DNA of 29,075 nucleotides, taken from IMG/VR virus record IMGVR_UViG_3300037222_000026, positions 1 through 29,075 of that record. One strand, given 5' to 3'. The stretch comes from a virus. Under the pieces are notes generated by a model that did no database searches, had not been told where the DNA came from, and worked only from the letters and a program-made list of their open reading frames with translations. This document shows, piece by piece, positions 6,222 through 27,129 of the stretch. Position 1 is the first letter of the stretch; every line of letters starts with the position of its first letter. The position numbers were made by a program, and so were the translations under genes.

Positions 6222-7748
6222 ATGACGACCGAATCCAAAACCGTCAAGCTATCCGAACTGACCATCGACCCGTCGAACGTCCGCAAGACGGGGCGCGGCG
6301 AAGAACCGATGTTCGCCGCGAGCATACGAGCGCGCGGCGTCATCGAACCGCTGATCGTGCGACAGAATCCGAAGGGCGGCTACCTGATCGTCAACGGAGG
6401 CGAACGGTTCACCGCCCTCAAGTTCCTCTACGAGAAGGGCGAGAAGGCCGCTGGTTATGACGTCACCAAGGACTTCCCGGTCCGCGTCGAGGTCGCCGAC
6501 CGCACCGACGACAACGCCCGCGCCACTAGCCTCGCAACGAACCTTGTCCGCGCCGGGATGCACCCCGTCGACGAGTTTGAAGCGTTCGCCGCATTGGTAA
6601 AGGAAGGCGCGCTGATTGAAGTCATCGCGTCCGAATACGCGCGGACGGTTCCCCAGGTCCGGCAGGCGCTTTCGCTCGCGGCCATCGCCCCGGAAATCCG
6701 CAAGGCGTGGCGGGAAGGCAAGATCGACGGCGAAGCCGCCGAGGCCTACGCGCAGACGCGGGACTTAGCGCACCAGGTCCGCACGTTCAAGAAGCTGAAG
6801 GGCCGCGCGTTCGACGCGTGGGCGGTCAACCAAGAGATCGCGGGCGCGCGTGCTCACGAACTCGACAAGTTGCTCAAGCTGGTCGGCAAGAAGGAATACG
6901 AGGCGGCGGGCCATCAGGTCAACCCGTCGCTGTTCGGCGACGACGACCGGGAAACGATCACGGTCAACAACGTGCCCGCGCTCAAGGCGATGGCGCTCCG
7001 CGAGGTTAGCGACGAGTGCGACCGCCTGACGAAGGACGGTTGGGGATGGGCGCTACCGCGCGACGAAGCGCCGAAAGACCTCTACGCGTGGCGCAGGCTG
7101 CCGCACGAAACGCCGAGCAAGGCGCAGAAGGCGCTCGCGGGCTGCACCGTCGACGTCAACTACGAAGGCAAGTTCGAAGTCGAGCGCGGCTACATCAAGC
7201 CGGGCGTGAGCGTCAAGATCGAGAAGACGCCCGCGCAGAAGGCGGCGCGCGCCGCTGCGGGACCGGCAAAGCCGGGCGTCCTTTCCAACGCGCTGGCGCA
7301 ACGGCTGCGCGAGCAGCAGGCGGCGGCGACCAAGATGGCGATCTCCGTCACGGTCCAGGCGCGGTACAAGGATAAGCTGTTCTGCCTGTTCGCTTCCGCC
7401 TGCAACGACCTGATAGACGCCGCGCGCCCGCAGGCGACGGCATCGGCCGTGCGGGACATTCTGGACGACGCGCGCGACCAGATCGACGCAGCCGTCATGA
7501 AAACCGCCCTGCTGAAGCACTTCGACGCGGACGACTACTTCGCGAACGCCCCGCGCGCGATGGCGTTCGCCGCAATGCGCGACATGAAGATCGAACCGCT
7601 TAAGAACGCGAAGAAGGCGGCGCTCGCCAAGCAGGCGACCGACGCCGCGAAGAAGGCCGGATGGCTGCCGCCTCAGTTCCGGACGAAAGGCTACGCGGGG
7701 CCGAAGACGAAGGCCGAGCCGAAGTCGACCCGGAAAAAACGCCTATGA
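6222..7748 (+). CDS. parB: ParB-family CTPase-type DNA-binding protein
   Basis: A 508-residue ParB/Spo0J-family protein. The N-terminal domain shows GVIEPLIVR (39-47), NGGERFTAL (58-66, in place of the usual GERR) and TNLVRAGMHPVDEFEAF (106-122, the conserved ENLxR..M.P.E block). A helix-turn-helix follows at about 130-152 (IEVIASEYARTVPQVRQALSLA). The C-terminal 250 residues are longer than in chromosomal ParB and unrecognised, with a basic tail ending in KKRL. ParB loads at parS sites and slides as a CTP clamp; a parS-like palindrome is at 27114-27129. No ParA is in the window, so it may regulate or condense DNA rather than partition it. GGGAAG precedes the ATG. Confidence 0.88.
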   Translation: MTTESKTVKLSELTIDPSNVRKTGRGEEPMFAASIRARGVIEPLIVRQNPKGGYLIVNGGERFTALKFLYEKGEKAAGYDVTKDFPVRVEVADRTDDNARATSLATNLVRAGMHPVDEFEAFAALVKEGALIEVIASEYARTVPQVRQALSLAAIAPEIRKAWREGKIDGEAAEAYAQTRDLAHQVRTFKKLKGRAFDAWAVNQEIAGARAHELDKLLKLVGKKEYEAAGHQVNPSLFGDDDRETITVNNVPALKAMALREVSDECDRLTKDGWGWALPRDEAPKDLYAWRRLPHETPSKAQKALAGCTVDVNYEGKFEVERGYIKPGVSVKIEKTPAQKAARAAAGPAKPGVLSNALAQRLREQQAAATKMAISVTVQARYKDKLFCLFASACNDLIDAARPQATASAVRDILDDARDQIDAAVMKTALLKHFDADDYFANAPRAMAFAAMRDMKIEPLKNAKKAALAKQATDAAKKAGWLPPQFRTKGYAGPKTKAEPKSTRKKRL

Positions 7749-12775: not shown

Positions 12776-13159
12776 ATGGCAGCCCGCAAGACCCCGTCGC
12801 GAGGATCGAAGCCCGACAAGATCATGCGGGACGCGCTTCAGCTCGAGCTGGCGCACGAGATCAAGGCGCAGGACCCGGACAGCGACCCGAAGAAGGGGCC
12901 GAAGCTCATCAAGATCAGGCGGTCGCGGCTCGTCGCCATCGCGCTGGTAAACAAGGCGATCAAGGGCGACGTCGCGGCCATTCGGGAGATCAACGAGCGG
13001 ATGGACGGTCGCGTTCCGCAGGTGGTCAAGGGCGACACGGCGAGCGGGGCAATCCCGATCGACATCACGAACCTGACGACCGCGCAGATCGAGAAGCTGA
13101 AGGAGCGGATCACTGCCGACCTCATCGCAAAAGGACGACTCCGATCTTCTGCTGCTTGA
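12776..13159 (+). CDS. terminase small subunit-like protein
   Basis: A 127-residue basic protein. The middle (LVAIALVNKAIKGDVAAIRE, then INERMDGRVPQVVKG) matches a family found directly before large terminase genes and serves as the small, DNA-recognising subunit of the packaging motor. The C-terminal helix (AQIEKLKERITADLIAKG) would contact the large subunit. It starts 2 bases after the preceding stop. Its 3' end overlaps the large-subunit frame, which has no ordinary start codon of its own. Confidence 0.8.
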   Translation: MAARKTPSRGSKPDKIMRDALQLELAHEIKAQDPDSDPKKGPKLIKIRRSRLVAIALVNKAIKGDVAAIREINERMDGRVPQVVKGDTASGAIPIDITNLTTAQIEKLKERITADLIAKGRLRSSAA

Positions 13160-14882
13160 CGCGTTCAACGATGAACTCGAGCGGCGGCGCAATTCGGTCT
13201 TCGCCCACTACGCTAAGTGGAAGGACGATCCCGTCGGATTCGTCACCGACGGGCTGCTCGGCTTCCTTTGGTCGAAGCAGGTCGAGATATGCCGCAGCGT
13301 CGTCAAGAACCGGCGCACGGCCGTCCAGTCCTGCCACGATATCGGGAAGGACTTCGTCGCCGCGCAGATCGTCGCGTGGTGGCTGTCCTGCAATGACCCG
13401 GGCGAAGCCTTCGCGGTCACGCTGGCGCCGACGCACCACCAGGTTCGCGGCATCCTGTGGCGGGAGATCAACCGCGCGCACGCCGCCGGTGGTCTGCCGG
13501 GGCGGCTGAACCAGACCGAATGGTGGCACGACCCCGAGCTGGTCGGCTTCGGCCGGTCGCCCGCCGATACTGATCCGACGGCGATCCAGGGCATCCACGC
13601 CCGCCGCGTGCTGGTGGTGCTCGATGAGGCTGGCGGCATCGGCAAGGCACTAGTCGACGCCGCCGACACGCTGATCGCGAACGAGGAAAGCCGAATCCTC
13701 GCCATCGGCAACCCGGACGACCCGGCGACCGAGTTCGCCAACCTCTGCAAGCCCGGGTCCGGCTGGAACGTGATCCGCATATCGGCGTTTGAGAGCCCAA
13801 ACTTCACCGGCGAGAAAATCCCAGAATCGCTCAAGCCGCTGCTGATCTCGAAGACGTGGGTCGAGGAGAAGCGGAAGACTTGGGGCGAAGCGTCGATGCT
13901 CTGGACGTCGAAGGTGCTCGGCGAGTTCCCCGAACAGTCCGTCGATTCGCTCATCCCGATCTCGGCTATCCGGGCGGCACACGCCCGCTATGCAGAACCA
14001 CCGCCCGTCGTGGAAGCGATTGCCGAACTTGCCGGAGCGGACACTGCGAACGAGATCGGCGTTGACGTCGCGCGCATGGGCGACGACCGTTCGGTCTTCT
14101 ACCGGCGCAAGGGCTGGCGCGCCTACCTGGAACACAAGCACACTAAGCGCGACCTGATGGAGCTGGTCGGCCACGTCGTCCGGCTCTGCCGGAAGGACAA
14201 GCCGAAGCGGGTTAAGATCGACGACACCGGCATGGGCGGCGGCGTTACGGACCGGCTGCGGGAAATGCAGGCGAACCAGAACCCGGTCAGCCCGGCTGAG
14301 ATCGAAGCGAAAGAAGCGTTGGCTGGCGTCGAGATCGTTCCGATCAACGTCGGCGAAAGCCCGTCGACGGCGCGCGCGGACGAGCGGTTCAAGAACAAGC
14401 GGGCGGAGATCAACTGGATGATGCGCGAGCTGTTCATGGCGGATAATGCGCGAATCGCCATCGAGCCGAACGACGACCTCGACGCCGAGGCGACGCAGGT
14501 CAAATACAAGCCGACGTCGACCGGCGAAATCCAGATCGAGGCGAAGGCCGATATGAAGAAGCGGACAAAGGGGGTCTCGCCCGACCATTGGGACGCGCTC
14601 TGCCTCGCGTTCGCCGAACCGACGTTCCTCGGCTTCGGCATCCTCGAATACTACAAGCGGGAAGCGGCTAAGATGGCCGCGAACCTTCCGGGCGGGAAGC
14701 CGACGCCGAAGCTCGCGACGACGCTCGCGGCGGGCGGCGTTCGATTGAAAGCTCCGGACGGTACGTCAACTGTTTACGGAATGACCGGGCAGGTGTATGT
14801 CGTTACAGCTGGTCACCTGATCGTTGACCCGAAAGACGCAACGCCGTTGCTCGGCCAGGGGTTCGAGCGCGCGCCGGTCTGA
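13149..14882 (+). CDS. terminase large subunit, non-canonical start
   Basis: The packaging ATPase and nuclease. Counted from the CTG at 13149 (577 residues): Walker A-like SCHDIGKDF at 61-69 (GKD in place of GKS/T), Walker B VLDEAGG near 157-163, and RuvC-like nuclease residues D306 (VDVARMGDD), D358 (KIDDTGMGGG) and D479/D482 (DHWDAL). The frame is open only from 13101 and contains no ATG, GTG or TTG until 13608, which would remove the whole ATPase N-terminus. The CTG codons at 13149 or 13152, after AAAAGGA, give a natural-looking start (LLDAFNDELERRR). A shift of frame from the small subunit gene is the alternative. Product call firm; start uncertain. Confidence 0.85.
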   Translation: MLLDAFNDELERRRNSVFAHYAKWKDDPVGFVTDGLLGFLWSKQVEICRSVVKNRRTAVQSCHDIGKDFVAAQIVAWWLSCNDPGEAFAVTLAPTHHQVRGILWREINRAHAAGGLPGRLNQTEWWHDPELVGFGRSPADTDPTAIQGIHARRVLVVLDEAGGIGKALVDAADTLIANEESRILAIGNPDDPATEFANLCKPGSGWNVIRISAFESPNFTGEKIPESLKPLLISKTWVEEKRKTWGEASMLWTSKVLGEFPEQSVDSLIPISAIRAAHARYAEPPPVVEAIAELAGADTANEIGVDVARMGDDRSVFYRRKGWRAYLEHKHTKRDLMELVGHVVRLCRKDKPKRVKIDDTGMGGGVTDRLREMQANQNPVSPAEIEAKEALAGVEIVPINVGESPSTARADERFKNKRAEINWMMRELFMADNARIAIEPNDDLDAEATQVKYKPTSTGEIQIEAKADMKKRTKGVSPDHWDALCLAFAEPTFLGFGILEYYKREAAKMAANLPGGKPTPKLATTLAAGGVRLKAPDGTSTVYGMTGQVYVVTAGHLIVDPKDATPLLGQGFERAPV

Positions 14883-14914: not shown

Positions 14915-15607
14915 ATGTCGAACAACATCATCAAGCTACAGGCTCCCGCTGGCGTGACCGGCGTCGTCCAGGCTTCAGGCACGCAGCAGACCTACCAAAT
15001 CGGGGCCGACGGCGGCGTGACCGTCGACCCGTTCGACGTCACCGCTCTTTTGCGCGCCGGGTTTACCTACGTCGCGAACAACTTCGGATGGTACGACACG
15101 CTGAAGGGTGTCGCCGCAGCGTCCGTCGCCCTCCTAGTTGCCTCCGCCGCCCTGTCGAACGGCACGAAGTCGGTCGCGGCCCAGGTCGACGTCCCGCGCC
15201 AGGCGCAGGCCGTTATCATCCCGGGAACCCTCGCGATCACGGCCGGCACGCTCACGCTGACCTATATCGCCAACGATGGCACCGTGGTCGCCGATGTCCT
15301 TTCGCTTGTTACCGCGCTATCGACCAACCTCACGCTGACCACGTCGAAGGGCGTCGTTCATTTGACGTCTGCGGTCGTGGCTGGCCTCGTCGGCGGCGCT
15401 TCGCCGACGTTCCAGGTCGGCACGAACGCCACGCTGGCGCTGCCCCTCCGCCCGGGCTTCCAGGACGTCGCCGTCGTCAAGGAGAACACCGACGGCACGG
15501 ACGGGACGGTTGGAACGGTTACGGCGTCCGGGGGCCTGATCGCTCCCACCACCGCGCCGAACGCGACGCACGTCTATAGCTTCGGCTACACCTACGTCGG
15601 CGTGTGA
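14915..15607 (+). CDS. structural-type protein with APAG domain
   Basis: A 230-residue, beta-rich, Ala/Val/Thr-rich protein lacking Cys. Residues 6-54 (KLQAPAGVTGVVQ, IGADGGVTVDPFDVTALLRAGF) form a small domain that recurs at the N-terminus of the protein at 27187. The rest is repetitive strand-forming sequence (TLAITAGTLTLTYIANDGT). Position between TerL and portal and this composition fit a head decoration or fibre-like protein; no homologue is recognised. Confidence 0.7.
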   Translation: MSNNIIKLQAPAGVTGVVQASGTQQTYQIGADGGVTVDPFDVTALLRAGFTYVANNFGWYDTLKGVAAASVALLVASAALSNGTKSVAAQVDVPRQAQAVIIPGTLAITAGTLTLTYIANDGTVVADVLSLVTALSTNLTLTTSKGVVHLTSAVVAGLVGGASPTFQVGTNATLALPLRPGFQDVAVVKENTDGTDGTVGTVTASGGLIAPTTAPNATHVYSFGYTYVGV

Positions 15608-16989
15608 AAACACTAGCCGAAAACACGGTCGGCGCTCCGGAGCTCAACGCCCGGGGCGTCGCCCTTCACCAGCAGCGCGACCTCGTCGGCGCGCGCCTAC
15701 ACTATGCGGCCGCGATTGAGGCCGACCCCGACTGCGCGTCGGCGCTGGCGAACCTCTGCGCGCTCATGCTTGACCTCGAACTGTTCGACGCTGCGGTCGT
15801 CGCAGCGAGTCGGGCCGTCCGCATCAAACCCGACAGCATGTCCTACGCGGAAAACCTCGGAAACGCGCTCTGGCGGTCCGACCGCTACGAGGAAGCCATC
15901 GCCGAGCTGCGCCGGTCCGTTACGATGACCGATACGTTCGGCGCGCGGCACAATCTCGGCCTTTGTTATATCGCGCTCAGCCGGTTCGACGAAGGCATCG
16001 CCGAACTCAAGCGCGCCGCTCACTTGATCAAGCACTCGCGAACCCCCGTTCCAGACCGGTGCAGGATCGACGTCCGCGCCGACCTTTCGTTCGCTCTGCT
16101 CGGGTCCGGACGGCTCGAAGAAGGGTTCACCGCGAACGAAGACCGGTGGGATCGGCTCGCGCCGCATCCCGTCCAGCGTTGCGGCCTTCCCGCGTGGGAC
16201 GGAAAGAACCCGGCGGGCAAGACGATCATCGTGCACCATGAGCAGGGCTTCGGCGACACGCTTCAGTTCTGCCGCTACCTGCCGATGTTGCGCGACGCTG
16301 GCGCCTACGTCGTCTTCGCGGGACCATCGGATCTGATGGGCGTGATCGAAGCGTCGGGTCTCGCCGACCAGGTCCTCGACCACGACAAGATGATGCCGCG
16401 CGCCGACTACCGCTGCGCGCTCATGTCGCTGCCGCACTTCTTCGGAACGAAGCTCGGGACCATCCCGCCGAGCGGCTATCTGCGCGCGCCGTTCGGCAAG
16501 ATCAAGGTCGAGCGGCGGCCGGGCACGAAGGTGGCCGTCGGCATGGTATGGGCGACGAACCGCATTGAACTTGGCGCACAGAAGCGGTGCGTCGGCCTGC
16601 CCAACCTGCTCCGCTTGGCGGAAGCACCGGGCGTCGAACTCTTTTCGCTTCAGTTCGGCGCGGGCCGCGCGGACATCAATAGGTACGGGGCCGAATCGCT
16701 CGTCACGGACCTGGGCGCGCGATTCACCAGCTTCTCGGACACCGCCGACGCCATCGCGCAGCTCGACGCGGTCGTGTCCGTCGACACGTCGGTCCTGCAT
16801 CTAGCCGCTGGTATGGGCAAGCCGACGCTCTGCGCGTTCCCGTTCTCGAACTGCTGGCGCTGGATGGGTCGTGGCAAAGCGCGTTCGCCGTGGTATGACT
16901 CCGCGCGGTTGTTCTGGCAGGACAAGCCGGGCAACTGGACGCCGGTCGTCGACGGCATCGCGAAAGAGGTTGCAACCCTATGCAGATGA
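15604..16989 (+). CDS. TPR glycosyltransferase
   Basis: A 461-residue protein from a GTG coupled to the previous stop (GTGA). Residues 10-150 carry TPR repeats (LNARGVALHQQRDLVGARLHY, YAENLGNALWRSDRYEEAIA, RHNLGLCYIALSRFDEGIA). Residues 205-455 form a GT-B glycosyltransferase domain: EQGFGDTLQFCRYLPML, then SVDTSVLHLAAGMGKPT, then NCWRWM...SPWYDSARLFWQ. This layout is that of bacterial TPR-fused transferases related to O-GlcNAc transferase and GT9 enzymes, which move a sugar from a nucleotide donor to proteins or glycans. It is soluble, with no membrane segment. Its place in the head module suggests virion protein as acceptor (inference). Confidence 0.9.
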   Translation: MKTLAENTVGAPELNARGVALHQQRDLVGARLHYAAAIEADPDCASALANLCALMLDLELFDAAVVAASRAVRIKPDSMSYAENLGNALWRSDRYEEAIAELRRSVTMTDTFGARHNLGLCYIALSRFDEGIAELKRAAHLIKHSRTPVPDRCRIDVRADLSFALLGSGRLEEGFTANEDRWDRLAPHPVQRCGLPAWDGKNPAGKTIIVHHEQGFGDTLQFCRYLPMLRDAGAYVVFAGPSDLMGVIEASGLADQVLDHDKMMPRADYRCALMSLPHFFGTKLGTIPPSGYLRAPFGKIKVERRPGTKVAVGMVWATNRIELGAQKRCVGLPNLLRLAEAPGVELFSLQFGAGRADINRYGAESLVTDLGARFTSFSDTADAIAQLDAVVSVDTSVLHLAAGMGKPTLCAFPFSNCWRWMGRGKARSPWYDSARLFWQDKPGNWTPVVDGIAKEVATLCR

Positions 16990-17447
16990 ACATCGTCGTC
17001 CAGCAAATCATGGGGTTCTTTATCGCGGAGGACGCGAAAACCGTACGGATCGGCGTGCGCAGTGGGCCCGACACGATTGACTTCACGTTTCCGACGCCGG
17101 ACCTCGACGGCGTCATCGACATCCTGACGCAAGCGCGCGATGCGGCGCTCGCGAAAGGCTTGCCGACCGACGCGAAGGTTCAGGTAAGGCAGCCCAAGTC
17201 GATTGCCGTCAGCAGGGCAGAAGACTTTGTCGGCGCGGTGCTAGTCTACTTCGACCGCGCGGAACCGAGCCGCACCATATTCATGATCGGGCACCAGGCG
17301 GCGAAGGACGCGGGCCAGCAGCTTATGAAGGCGGGCCGTGAAGCAGGAGAAGCGGCAGCCATCGTGGCTGCGGCTTCCGGCGAAGCCCGGCGCATGGCGC
17401 AGAAGTCTCCCGTCAACGGGCATCAGACGGCGCTGATCAAGGAATAA
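16986..17447 (+). CDS. hypothetical protein downstream of glycosyltransferase
   Basis: A 153-residue protein starting at the ATG that overlaps the glycosyltransferase stop (ATGA; the ATG at 16980 is two codons longer). The first 110 residues form an alpha/beta domain (DAKTVRIGVRSGPDTIDFTF, VIDILTQARDAALAKG, AVLVYFDRA). A long Ala-rich helix follows (AAKDAGQQLMKAGREAGEAA). Not recognised. Coupling suggests a role with the glycosyltransferase or simple co-expression. Confidence 0.68.
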   Translation: MNIVVQQIMGFFIAEDAKTVRIGVRSGPDTIDFTFPTPDLDGVIDILTQARDAALAKGLPTDAKVQVRQPKSIAVSRAEDFVGAVLVYFDRAEPSRTIFMIGHQAAKDAGQQLMKAGREAGEAAAIVAAASGEARRMAQKSPVNGHQTALIKE

Positions 17448-17469
17448 TCCAACTTAAGGGATCACCATT

Positions 17470-17985
17470 ATGAAAAACCTTCTCCGCGTTCTATCTATCG
17501 CCGCGATGATGCTTTGCGGCGGCTCATTGCTAGCCGAAGCGCAGACTCAATGGCCGACGCCGACGGCCGGTATTCCTGCTGGCGGCGGCACGGCGATGTG
17601 GCTCAATTCATCGGGTCAATCCGTTCCGGTCTCTGCGGCGAATCCATTTCCAATCTCCGGAACATTTTGGCAGGTCACTCAGCCCGTATCGCTCGCTGCC
17701 GTACCGCTGCCTCCCGGGTTTTCGGTTAACAATATCACGACGTCGACGACGACCGTAGTGAAGTCCGGCGCTGGCGTGCTTCATGGGGTGACGATCAACC
17801 TCAAAGGAACCGTGGCATCGACTGTTACGATTTACGATAGCCTCACCGGATCGGGCACCAAGATCGGGACCGTCGATTCGCTCACATTAAGCGGTGCCTT
17901 TTTCTATGATGCGGCTTTCGCGACCGGACTGACTGTCGTCACTACGGGCACCGCCGCGCCCGATGTTTCCATAACGTATCGGTAA
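17470..17985 (+). CDS. signal-peptide-bearing structural-type protein
   Basis: A 171-residue protein. Residues 1-24 are a clear Sec signal peptide: MKNLLRVLS, a hydrophobic core, then LLAEA before Gln, an A-x-A cleavage site. The Cys inside the core is not in a proper lipobox. The mature part is Thr/Ser/Gly-rich and beta-strand forming (GVTINLKGTVASTVTIYDSL, FFYDAAFATGLTVVTTG, PDVSITYR at the end), a pattern common in small phage structural proteins. Base use is somewhat poorer in G+C than neighbours (53% in 17641-17700). Export to the periplasm is odd for a gene in the head cluster. Confidence 0.75.
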   Translation: MKNLLRVLSIAAMMLCGGSLLAEAQTQWPTPTAGIPAGGGTAMWLNSSGQSVPVSAANPFPISGTFWQVTQPVSLAAVPLPPGFSVNNITTSTTTVVKSGAGVLHGVTINLKGTVASTVTIYDSLTGSGTKIGTVDSLTLSGAFFYDAAFATGLTVVTTGTAAPDVSITYR

Positions 17986-17992
17986 GGCGACT

Positions 17993-20440
17993 ATGCCCAA
18001 GAAGCCATTAAAGAAAGCCATCGACACGCCGCGCGGTCCCGGTACTTCGATGGTCCCGGTCTCGCCGTACAACATCAGCGTCAGCGCGGGCGGAATAAAG
18101 ACCGACCCGTCGGCCGGCATCGTGCTTGGGACCGGGGCCGACTGGTTCGGGCCGCTAAACCCGATGACGCCGATCGCGCCGCCCGAAGTCGTAGGCCGCG
18201 CATGGGACTTCCCTCCGGGCTACAACCTGATCACGCGTCCACGGTCCTACGAGATCGTCGACTTCCCAATGATGCGCGCGCTCGCGGATTCCTACGACCT
18301 GCTGCGGCTCGTTATCGAAACGCGCAAGGACCAGATCACGAAGATCAAGTGGAAGATTCGCACGAAGGAAGAAGCGACCGACAAAAAGGCGAAGACGACG
18401 GCGAAGCAGCAGGACCAGATCGACGAGGTCGAAGACTTCCTCGAACGGCCCGACGGTCTAAACCGATGGAAGCCGTGGCTGCGTTCGCTGCTCGAAGATG
18501 TGTTCGTGCTCGACGCCCCGGCGCTTTACATGCAGCGCAACCGTGGCGGCCGCCTGATCGCGCTCAAGCAGGTCGACGGCGCGCTGATCAAGCCTATCAT
18601 CGACGACTGGGGCCGCACGCCGCAGCCGCAAGCGCGCGGGGGCACGATGTTCTACCCGCCCGCCTATCAGGCGACGCTGAAGGGGCTGCCCGCGACGAAC
18701 TACACGACGCGCGATATGATCTATCGCCCCTATAACCGCCGGGCGCAGAAGGCCTACGGCTATTCGCCGGTCGAACAGATCATCATCACGGTCAACATCG
18801 CGCTCCGGCGCCAGATGTACAATCTCGCGTACTACACCGAGGGCAACATTCCCGAAGCGCTGATCGGCACGCCCGACAACTGGACGCCGGAGCAGATCGT
18901 CGCGTTCCAGAACAACTGGGACCAGATGTTTACCGGTAACCTGGCGCAGCGCCGGCACGCCAAGTTCGTCCCCGGCGGCGTCGCGAAGACCTTTATCCCC
19001 ACGAAAGAACCTGACCTTAAGAACCCGATGGACGAGTGGCTCGCGCGCATCGTCTGCTTCGCTTTCTCGATCTCGCCGCAGCCCTTCGTCATTCAGATGA
19101 ACCGCGCAACGGCGGGGACCGCGCAGGAAGTCGCGAAGGAAGAAGGCGTCGAGCCGCTCAAGGAATACATCAAAGAGCTGATCGACGACGTCATCGAGCA
19201 AGAGTTCGAGAACGACGAGCTGGAGTTCGCGTGGGACGAGGAAGTCGAGGTCGACCAGACCGCGCAGACGAACCTGATCGCCAAGCGCGTCGAGGACGGC
19301 CTGATCACGATCAACCAGGGCCGCGAGGCGCTCGGCGAGGAAACGAGCGACGACCCGGCCGCCGACGTCCTGATGGTCAAGACCGCGACGGGCTACGTGC
19401 CGATCGACGCGAACACCATCGACGGCAAGCAGGCGTCTATCGACGCCGGGATCACCGCCGACCCGACGATCCCGAAGACCATCGTGGCCCCGCCAGGTAC
19501 GCCCGGCGCCAACGGAGAGGCACCTGGATCCCCGCCAGCAAAGGGTTCGCCGCAGGAACCGCCTGCGAAGGGCGCAGACAAGCCGAAGGCGTCCGATACG
19601 AAGGGCGCAGCGAAGTCAGCCGCGAAGGCCTACGCGCACGGCACGCGCCGGTTTATGAAGGCAGCCCGGCGGTCCGGGAGGACCGCCCCCGACCCTTTTG
19701 CTCGTAAGGCCCCACGGGCCGCACGTTCCAACGTCAAGAAACTGTTCGCCCAGGCCTTCCGTAAGGCCGCGAAGAAAGTCGCAGCGCAGGTCCGCCGCGC
19801 TGACGTCGGTAAGCTGGCAAAGGCGGACACGCCCGACGACATAGCCCGCGACGCCGAGTTGGACGCTATCGAGCAAATCGTCGTCGATCTCGGAGACGAG
19901 TTCGCGGACGTCGCGACCGACATCGCCGAACAAGTTCTTGCACAGCTCGGCGTCACGGACGCAGCCGACCTTGTCGACCAGGTCAACGAAGCGGCGGTGA
20001 CGGCGGCGCGCGAGCAGGCGGCTGAGCTCGTTACGCAGATCGAAGACACGACGCGCGAAATGATCCGGGGCGTCATCGCCGACGGGCTCGAGCAGAACAT
20101 CGGGACCGATGAGATTGCGCAGAACATCATGGACTCGACGGGGTTTTCCGAAACCCGCGCCGACCTGATCGCGAATACGGAAGTCCGTAACGCGAACAGC
20201 CAAGGCGCGCTCGAAGGCTACCGGGGCGCGAACAGCATGGGCCTGACCGTTCAGAAGGAATGGCTGCTCGGCGACAACCCGTGCGAGATTTGCGAAGCGA
20301 ACGCCGACGACGGTCCCATCGACGTCGACGATGACTTCTCGTCGGGCGACGATGCGCCGCCCGCTCACCCGAACTGCGAGTGCGCGGTCTCGCCCGTCGT
20401 GGTAGACGATGGATCTGACGTCGCCGACGCCGAGGAATAA
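17993..20440 (+). CDS. portal protein fused to MuF-like domain
   Basis: An 815-residue protein. Residues 70-480 are a phage portal: early DLLRLVIETRKDQITKIKWK, LLEDVFVLDAPALYMQRN, YGYSPVEQIIITVNIALRRQ and a C-terminal FSISPQPFVIQMNRATAG, typical of the siphophage portal family. A Pro/Ala/Lys-rich linker covers about 495-570. Residues 590-815 are helical and end in an F-type MuF domain (SETRADLIANTEVRNANSQG, NPCEICEANADDG, PPAHPNCECAV). The portal forms the dodecameric DNA gate; MuF proteins are minor head proteins usually encoded separately just downstream. The fusion accounts for the large size. Confidence 0.9.
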   Translation: MPKKPLKKAIDTPRGPGTSMVPVSPYNISVSAGGIKTDPSAGIVLGTGADWFGPLNPMTPIAPPEVVGRAWDFPPGYNLITRPRSYEIVDFPMMRALADSYDLLRLVIETRKDQITKIKWKIRTKEEATDKKAKTTAKQQDQIDEVEDFLERPDGLNRWKPWLRSLLEDVFVLDAPALYMQRNRGGRLIALKQVDGALIKPIIDDWGRTPQPQARGGTMFYPPAYQATLKGLPATNYTTRDMIYRPYNRRAQKAYGYSPVEQIIITVNIALRRQMYNLAYYTEGNIPEALIGTPDNWTPEQIVAFQNNWDQMFTGNLAQRRHAKFVPGGVAKTFIPTKEPDLKNPMDEWLARIVCFAFSISPQPFVIQMNRATAGTAQEVAKEEGVEPLKEYIKELIDDVIEQEFENDELEFAWDEEVEVDQTAQTNLIAKRVEDGLITINQGREALGEETSDDPAADVLMVKTATGYVPIDANTIDGKQASIDAGITADPTIPKTIVAPPGTPGANGEAPGSPPAKGSPQEPPAKGADKPKASDTKGAAKSAAKAYAHGTRRFMKAARRSGRTAPDPFARKAPRAARSNVKKLFAQAFRKAAKKVAAQVRRADVGKLAKADTPDDIARDAELDAIEQIVVDLGDEFADVATDIAEQVLAQLGVTDAADLVDQVNEAAVTAAREQAAELVTQIEDTTREMIRGVIADGLEQNIGTDEIAQNIMDSTGFSETRADLIANTEVRNANSQGALEGYRGANSMGLTVQKEWLLGDNPCEICEANADDGPIDVDDDFSSGDDAPPAHPNCECAVSPVVVDDGSDVADAEE

Positions 20441-20443
20441 CAG

Positions 20444-21547
20444 ATGTCGATGCACGCCGCGCCAAGATCGTTACCGGAATCGATCCCGTGGTTCGCGCCT
20501 CGCATGACCGGCCGCGAACTGGCGGCGATCAACGACGTGCTGCTCAGCGGCTTCATCAACGAAGGCGACGTGACGAGGAAGTTCGAAAGCCGCGTCGCTG
20601 CGGTATCGGCTCGGCGCTACGGCGTCGCGGTGCCGAACGGCACGTGCGCTATCGCGCTCGCGCTTATGGCCTGCGGGATTGAACATGGCGACGACGTCAT
20701 CGTCCCCGACCTGACCTTCATCGCGACGGCGAACGCTGTGCGGCTGGCGGGCGGCAACGTCATCCTAGCCGACGTCGATCCGACGAACCTGTGCCTGTCG
20801 GCAGACGCGATAGCCGACGTGGTGACGCCACGGAGCCGCTTCGTAATACCGGTCGAGGTCAACGGTCGTCGTCCCGCCTATCGTGCGATCAACGACGTCT
20901 GCGTCGCCTACGACCTGACGATGATCACCGATAGCTGCGAAGCGCTCGGCTCCGCCGATTGCGGGTCGTGGGGCCGGGCGTCGTGCTTCTCGTTCTCGCC
21001 GAACAAGCTGGTGACGACCGGGCAAGGCGGCATGGTGGTGACGAATAGCGCCGAGACCTACGGCGCGTTGAAGCGGCTCAAGTTCCAGGGGATGCCGGAC
21101 CGCGGCAGCGGCGGCAACGACCGGCATCCGGCGCTCGGCTACAATTTCAAGTTCAACGATATTCTGGCGGCCGTCGGCATGGTGCAGCTCGACGCGCTGG
21201 TCGACCGGCTGGCGAAGTGCCGCGAGCGTGACCGGTGGTACCACGACGCCCTGAGCGGCCTTATCGAGTTTCCGACGACCGCGCCGGGCGAGACCTGCCT
21301 ATGGACCGACGCGCTGGTCGATAACCAGGCCACGCTGGCGGCCCACTTCCGCGCGCACGGAGTTGGGATGCGCGGCTTCTGGTTCCCGCTGCACACCCAG
21401 CCGCCCTATTTATTCAGCCGGCCGTTCCCAGCGACGACGTCAATCTCCCGACGTGGTGTATGGTTGCCGTCGAATCACGACATCACGCAGGACCAGGTCG
21501 GCCGTGTGGTGGATCTCATTAAAGCCAAGGTGAAACATGATTCGTGA
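20444..21547 (+). CDS. DegT/DnrJ/EryC1-family sugar aminotransferase
   Basis: A 367-residue PLP enzyme that transfers an amino group (usually from glutamate) to a nucleotide-linked keto-sugar. Signs are the phosphate-binding NGT at 65-67, D163 in ITDSCEALGS (ring nitrogen contact), the PLP-binding lysine K188 in FSFSPNKLVTTGQGG, and LGYNFKFNDILAAVGMVQL at 231-249. Length is typical of the family. It starts 3 bases after the portal stop with GAGGA upstream, and its last 11 bases overlap the acyltransferase gene. No epimerase, dehydratase or nucleotidyltransferase is in the window, so the keto-sugar must come from elsewhere. Confidence 0.93.
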   Translation: MSMHAAPRSLPESIPWFAPRMTGRELAAINDVLLSGFINEGDVTRKFESRVAAVSARRYGVAVPNGTCAIALALMACGIEHGDDVIVPDLTFIATANAVRLAGGNVILADVDPTNLCLSADAIADVVTPRSRFVIPVEVNGRRPAYRAINDVCVAYDLTMITDSCEALGSADCGSWGRASCFSFSPNKLVTTGQGGMVVTNSAETYGALKRLKFQGMPDRGSGGNDRHPALGYNFKFNDILAAVGMVQLDALVDRLAKCRERDRWYHDALSGLIEFPTTAPGETCLWTDALVDNQATLAAHFRAHGVGMRGFWFPLHTQPPYLFSRPFPATTSISRRGVWLPSNHDITQDQVGRVVDLIKAKVKHDS

Positions 21548-22127
21548 ACCGTCGCCCTACCTATCGGTCGATGAGCTAAAGGAGATCGGCTTCAGCGTGG
21601 TCGGCCGAGGCAACAAGATCAGCCGCAACTGCTCGTTCTACGGCGTCAAGGGATTCATCGGCGACAACGTGCGCGTCGACGACTTTTGCATTATCAAGGG
21701 CCACGTCGAACTCCACGACTACTGCCACGTCGCGTCCTACGTCATGATCAGCGGCGCGCACGCCCAGGTCATCGTCGGCGCGTTCTGCGGGCTGGCCGCT
21801 CGGACCACGATATTCACGGGCAGCGACGACTACGGCGCCGACACGCTCGGATGCCCGGAGACGCCCGACATCTATTGCACGCGCATTAAGGGGCCGATCA
21901 CGTTCGGCGTTGGCGCGATGATCGGGGCGCACAGCGTGGTGCTGCCGAACGTCCACGTCGGCGACGGTGCTAGCGCCGGCTGTGGCTGCGTCATATCGAA
22001 CGACCTCCCGGCCGGCGGCATAATGCGGGCGGCTCCCAGCGTCGTCTACGCGCGCCGGCGAAATTGGCAGAAAATCAAGGAGCTGGCGCTGCGCGTCCTT
22101 GAAAACCACGATGGTGGATCATGTTGA
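21537..22127 (+). CDS. left-handed beta-helix acyltransferase
   Basis: A 196-residue hexapeptide-repeat transferase. Repeats run through about residues 28-160 (FIGDNVRVDDFCIIKG, YCHVASYVMISGAH, ITFGVGAMIGAHSVVLPNVHVGDGASAGCG). H132 in IGAHSVVLP is in the position of the catalytic His of acetyltransferases such as galactoside and WbbJ-type enzymes. Coupled to an amino-sugar-forming aminotransferase, it most likely N-acylates that amino sugar with acetyl-CoA. It overlaps genes on both sides (11 and 7 bases), giving a tight three-gene unit. Confidence 0.88.
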   Translation: MIREPSPYLSVDELKEIGFSVVGRGNKISRNCSFYGVKGFIGDNVRVDDFCIIKGHVELHDYCHVASYVMISGAHAQVIVGAFCGLAARTTIFTGSDDYGADTLGCPETPDIYCTRIKGPITFGVGAMIGAHSVVLPNVHVGDGASAGCGCVISNDLPAGGIMRAAPSVVYARRRNWQKIKELALRVLENHDGGSC

Positions 22128-27113: not shown

Positions 27114-27129
27114 CGTTTCACGTGAAACA
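27114..27129. promoter_or_regulatory. parS-like ParB-binding palindrome
   Basis: CGTTTCACGTGAAACA matches the widely conserved chromosomal parS consensus TGTTTCACGTGAAACA at 15 of 16 bases. The inner 14 bases are a perfect palindrome. It lies in the gap after the capsid gene. A ParB gene is at 6222-7748, but the canonical site is also what the host chromosomal ParB would bind. Confidence 0.85.

Follow-up and report, generated by a model that had tools for sequence, protein, structure and literature searches.

A phage large terminase frame that has apparently lost its embedded start codon and may now begin at CTG

The DNA described here is a single metagenomic IMG/VR virus record of 29,075 bases, which we refer to as the window. 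Within it, a gene for a small terminase subunit (TerS) runs into a reading frame for the large subunit (TerL); the two share an overlap of 59 bases, and moving from the TerS frame into the TerL frame takes a +1 shift. The features on which the argument depends are the following (SD, Shine-Dalgarno).

12776..13159, plus strand: open reading frame for a TerS-like small terminase subunit, with an ATG start and a TGA stop at 13157-13159
13073..13090, plus strand: TerS motif LTTAQI, where relatives have LSDAQL, LTDAQL and similar sequences with an embedded TerL start
13098..13100, plus strand: TGA stop closing the TerL frame, 3′ of the position of the ancestral start
13100..13105, plus strand: AAGGAG, SD-like, 7 bases before CTG 13113; anti-SD duplex of -8.0 kcal/mol
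13101..14882, plus strand: TerL reading frame, recognized by phrog_2, tblastn, a PDB profile match and a codon-usage score
13113..13115, plus strand: CTG formed by the TerS codon ACT; putative and most likely TerL start
13149..13154, plus strand: CTG CTG, candidate alternative starts, with a weaker and distant SD at 13130-13135, near the TerL beginnings of relatives L117 and L086
13329..13352, plus strand: Walker A, SCHDIGKD, with Asp encoded by GAC at 13350-13352
13608..13610, plus strand: GTG, the first ATG, GTG or TTG in the TerL frame, 3′ of Walker A and just 5′ of the Walker B DE
17993: portal/head-morphogenesis fusion, downstream of TerL with other genes intervening
23043: protease, downstream of the portal gene
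25498: likely capsid, a head gene
27689 and 28533: connectors, also head genes

The identity of the large terminase is clear from several directions. The protein matches phrog_2 over residues 34-511 (E 1.1e-27), a tblastn search with it found matches in 229 phage records, and a profile built from alignment A4 matched solved large-terminase chains in the PDB through the C-terminal domain ("Gene 2 protein" entries, 8dkr); the similarity takes in both the ATPase and the nuclease domains. The Walker B acidic pair is present (VLVVLDEA, with the DE codons at 13623-13628), and the nuclease segments GVDVAR, KIDDTG and SPDHWDA retain the Asp columns that are invariant, or nearly so, in A4. Gene order agrees, the frame lying 3′ of TerS and 5′ of the portal and capsid genes. 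The upstream protein is only weakly similar to DUF5681, under the curated cut-off, and its C-terminus can be aligned with the TerS-like proteins encoded before TerL in relatives. By the codon-usage score, coding signal in the TerS frame extends to about 13127 and passes into the TerL frame around 13128-13134.

Two other features of the head-gene region deserve mention. Sugar-related genes are scattered through it (15604-22127): a TPR/glycosyltransferase-9 protein (15604) lies between TerL and the portal, and a DegT aminotransferase (20444) and a hexapeptide transferase (21537) lie between the portal and the protease. Positions 27114-27129, in the gap that separates the likely capsid gene from the one after it, read CGTTTCACGTGAAACA, one mismatch from TGTTTCACGTGAAACA, which we take to be the bacterial parS consensus; the chance expectation is 0.06, and the phage encodes a ParB_N protein (6222-7748).

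An earlier note on this DNA had drawn attention to the absence of an ordinary start codon from the TerL frame, and the sequence bears it out: the stop that it placed at 13098-13100 is there, a TGA, the frame then runs uninterrupted for 593 codons and a stop, and the first in-frame GTG, at 13608, falls past Walker A, too late for a functional ATPase. Also as that note had it, the in-frame CTG codons are those at 13113, 13149 and 13152, and TerS overlaps in the +1 relation. From 13101 up to the conserved N-terminal helix, these CTGs are accompanied by no in-frame ATT, ATC or ATA. The 169 codons 5′ of 13608 carry a TerL coding signal of +72 nats. Across the whole window, the other plus-strand frames reach at most about 12 nats before their first canonical start, and the runner-up, at about 12 nats, is a frame that opens at the window edge. 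We considered whether CTG starts might be used throughout this phage and rejected the possibility, since its other plus-strand genes have no comparable signal ahead of their starts.

When TerS bases 13061-13156 were recoded synonymously according to the codon usage of the window (20,000 trials), a canonical start appeared in the TerL frame in 17% of trials; taken alone, the absence of such a start is not rare. A broader comparison is more telling. Among 168 TerLs, 166 either have a canonical start 5′ of the WSKQ motif or lie in a frame cut by the contig end, and only the window and L107 combine a closed frame with the lack of a canonical start 14 or more residues ahead of WSKQ. Together with the strong signal upstream of 13608, this indicates that the absence is a real, lineage-specific anomaly. 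L107 is an actinobacterial locus (Trebonia kvetii) whose TerL is 35% identical to that of the window. At 2938-2960 it too has no ATG, GTG or TTG before the ATPase core; a GTA there overlaps the TAA stop of the upstream gene (GTAA) and is preceded by an SD-like GAGGG.

The origin of the anomaly is suggested by related phages. Alignment-based searches twice gave 80 viral loci and also gave 30 bacterial loci; a single-protein query (P0001) matched nothing among the viral contigs, whereas alignment queries A2 and A3 did, and an exact search with 24 bases of the junction found no second contig. The nearest relative of the window TerL is only about 64% identical. In ten members of the clade, the TerL start is embedded in a C-terminal TerS motif, L(S/T/N)(D/N)(A/V)QL, whose Asp/Asn-Ala codons (e.g., GAT GCC) give ATG in the +1 frame. 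That ATG is found in L116, L118, L119, L121, L124, L125, L126 and L127; in L122 and L123 a GTG stands one codon before that position, and in L118 and L119 the embedded codon is the sole canonical start. Where it comes first in frame, TerS and TerL overlap by 59-137 bases. Because these starts lie within TerS and their SDs are weak or lacking (0 to -5.9 kcal/mol), translation of TerL in this clade probably depends on translation of TerS.

In the phylogenetic tree, the window is sister to L117 (100/97) and then to L116 (95/83), with L118 also in the well supported clade. The TerLs of these three and of L119, all on IMG/VR contigs, belong to the same family as that of the window (56-64% identity). 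L116, L118 and L119 share with the window the TerS-TerL order, the overlapping +1 frames and the TerS C-terminal motif; unlike the window, they keep the embedded ATG, with weak or no SD. L117 likewise retains a canonical start, a GTG, and has a different gene upstream of TerL. When the junction was compared in relatives, as had been proposed for this locus, the triplet occupying the position of their embedded start proved to be CCG in the window (13080-13082), and the TGA at 13098 then follows in the TerL frame. The ancestral TerL start has therefore been lost, and by more than one change.

These comparisons bear directly on the possibility that the record is misleading, whether through a substitution error, through capture of a minority or defective variant of a virus that usually has a canonical start, or because TerL is truly broken here. 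An insertion or deletion is argued against by the TerS-to-TerL frame relation, which is the same in the window and in its relatives, so that the sequencing error raised at the outset is weakened in that form but not as a substitution; with CCG in place and the TGA beyond it, regaining the ancestral start would take more than one base change. What gives the idea force is that the window is one metagenomic record, that CUG starts are rare a priori, and that Walker A ends in GKD rather than GK[S/T]: an Asp occupies the position that is Ser or Thr in 167 of 167 relatives, L116-L119 among them. Against it, the frame is otherwise intact and conserved. TerL keeps 70 of the 72 columns whose conservation is at least 90%, the exceptions being that Asp and an Ile at residue 162; an intact 593-codon frame with this degree of conservation must have been under selection, and the head genes 3′ of TerL look intact as well. 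A scan for SCHxxGKDF found GKD in two other full-length IMG/VR TerLs, L172 (1580-1606) and L174 (3547-3573), at 27-30% identity. Since both are intact, we do not accept GKD as proof of a dead gene, and we treat it as a rare natural variant within a TerL family in which Ser or Thr is usual but not strictly defining. An erroneous record or a broken gene seems to us unlikely.

If the gene is functional, where would translation begin? In its ribosome-binding site, CTG 13113 far surpasses the other two CTGs. The AAGGAG before it is suitably placed, and of the 31 gene starts on the window's list, 28 have a weaker SD. Only 5 of 498 plus-strand CTGs have an SD as strong at a spacing of 4-9 bases (1%), and synonymous recoding of TerS (20,000 trials) produced a CTG with such an SD in 1% of trials. 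The 1% chance figure applies per site, and AAG GAG are common Lys-Glu codons. The ACT that supplies the CTG is a rare Thr codon in the window (13 of 332). In the predicted fold, SD and CTG are both partly hidden, with unpaired probabilities of 0.27 and 0.31. The pairing of poor start codons with stronger SDs is a known tendency (PMC5622118). CUG itself is a poor and rare start: initiation at CUG reaches about 0.86% of that at AUG in E. coli, CUG accounts for about 0.024% of bacterial starts (PMC11497404), and AUG-to-CUG switches numbered 2 in 61,358 (PMC5622118). CTG 13113 is nevertheless the most likely start codon for TerL, judged from the sequence. The earlier note had left open a CTG start, a frameshift or an error, and had listed this codon last of the three CTGs; a CTG start is the best supported of these.

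TerL might instead begin at CTG 13149 or 13152, beside the TerS stop and coupled to TerS termination, with the SD-like AAAGGA at 13130-13135. Phages often place a start beside the stop of the preceding gene, the TerL coding signal starts at about 13131, and the TerLs of L086 and L117 begin close by. The SD is weaker here, however (-5.3 kcal/mol), and at 12-15 bases it lies too far away, and pairing predictions put the codons themselves in paired stretches (unpaired probability 0.04). We regard these positions as improbable primary starts.

A +1 ribosomal frameshift yielding a TerS-TerL fusion, also proposed in the earlier note, finds little in the sequence to recommend it. The 59-base overlap could indeed be joined by a +1 shift, and the TGAC at the TerS stop is a poor context for termination. 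Positions 13050-13300 contain no X XXY YYZ heptamer, however, and the junction sequence contains no prfB-like SD-CUU-UGA arrangement; neither a slippery site or stimulator nor conservation in relatives could be found. An alignment of the relatives revealed no common sequence at their TerS stops, and in most relatives that share the frame relation TerL has a canonical start. A fusion made in this way seems very improbable. A variant in which ribosomes would begin out of frame, at TTG 13156 or ATG 13171, and then shift was also rejected: neither codon has an SD, their frame carries little or no coding signal, and there is no slip site.

We therefore return to initiation at CTG 13113 as part of our preferred account, held with middling confidence, in which an ordinary large terminase has lost its ancestral start and is now translated most likely from that codon. 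The ancestral start of TerL, an ATG or GTG, lay within TerS and overlapped the codons for L(S/T/N)(D/N)(A/V)QL. With the change of the TerS motif to LTTAQI that start became CCG, a TGA arose farther downstream in the TerL frame, and initiation would have relocated about 33 bases downstream to CTG 13113, where the strong SD 7 bases upstream may offset the poor codon. The product would be a TerL of 589 residues, made in low amounts from the TerS-TerL message, with CTG 13149 or 13152 as fallback starts. We infer that a low yield would be sufficient. It is tempting to speculate further that the exchange of an embedded AUG or GUG for CUG backed by a strong SD, in an essential packaging gene, was a selected switch that keeps TerL low, although we consider this doubtful.

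Partial parallels exist. The combination of a poor codon with a strong SD seen in the window resembles the non-AUG starts analyzed by Belinky et al. 2017 (PMC5622118), whose evidence for compensation comes from GUG and UUG, CUG switches being few. The account of sigR of Streptomyces (PMC5472188) describes a functional bacterial gene without an ATG, GTG or TTG start, as TerL would be; unlike TerL, it is a non-phage gene that begins with GTC and is reported there to be subject to IF3-mediated regulation. In Bacteroides phage phiB124-14, ORF10 is annotated with a CTG start (PMC3338817); that start is predicted, and the passage describing the ORF does not call it a terminase. A TerL with a CTG start is a curiosity and does not constitute a new type of system.

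If our preferred account is correct, gene callers restricted to ATG, GTG and TTG would cut this TerL back to 13608, losing the ATPase, and the locus would record how an amino-acid change in an overlapping gene abolished the start embedded there, a new start taking its place close by. The occurrence of Asp in the Walker A of at least three TerLs raises a separate question, that of magnesium binding by packaging motors. Should the switch prove to have been selected, the window would offer a worked example of start-site relocation in an overlapping gene, in a motor with a Walker A Asp.
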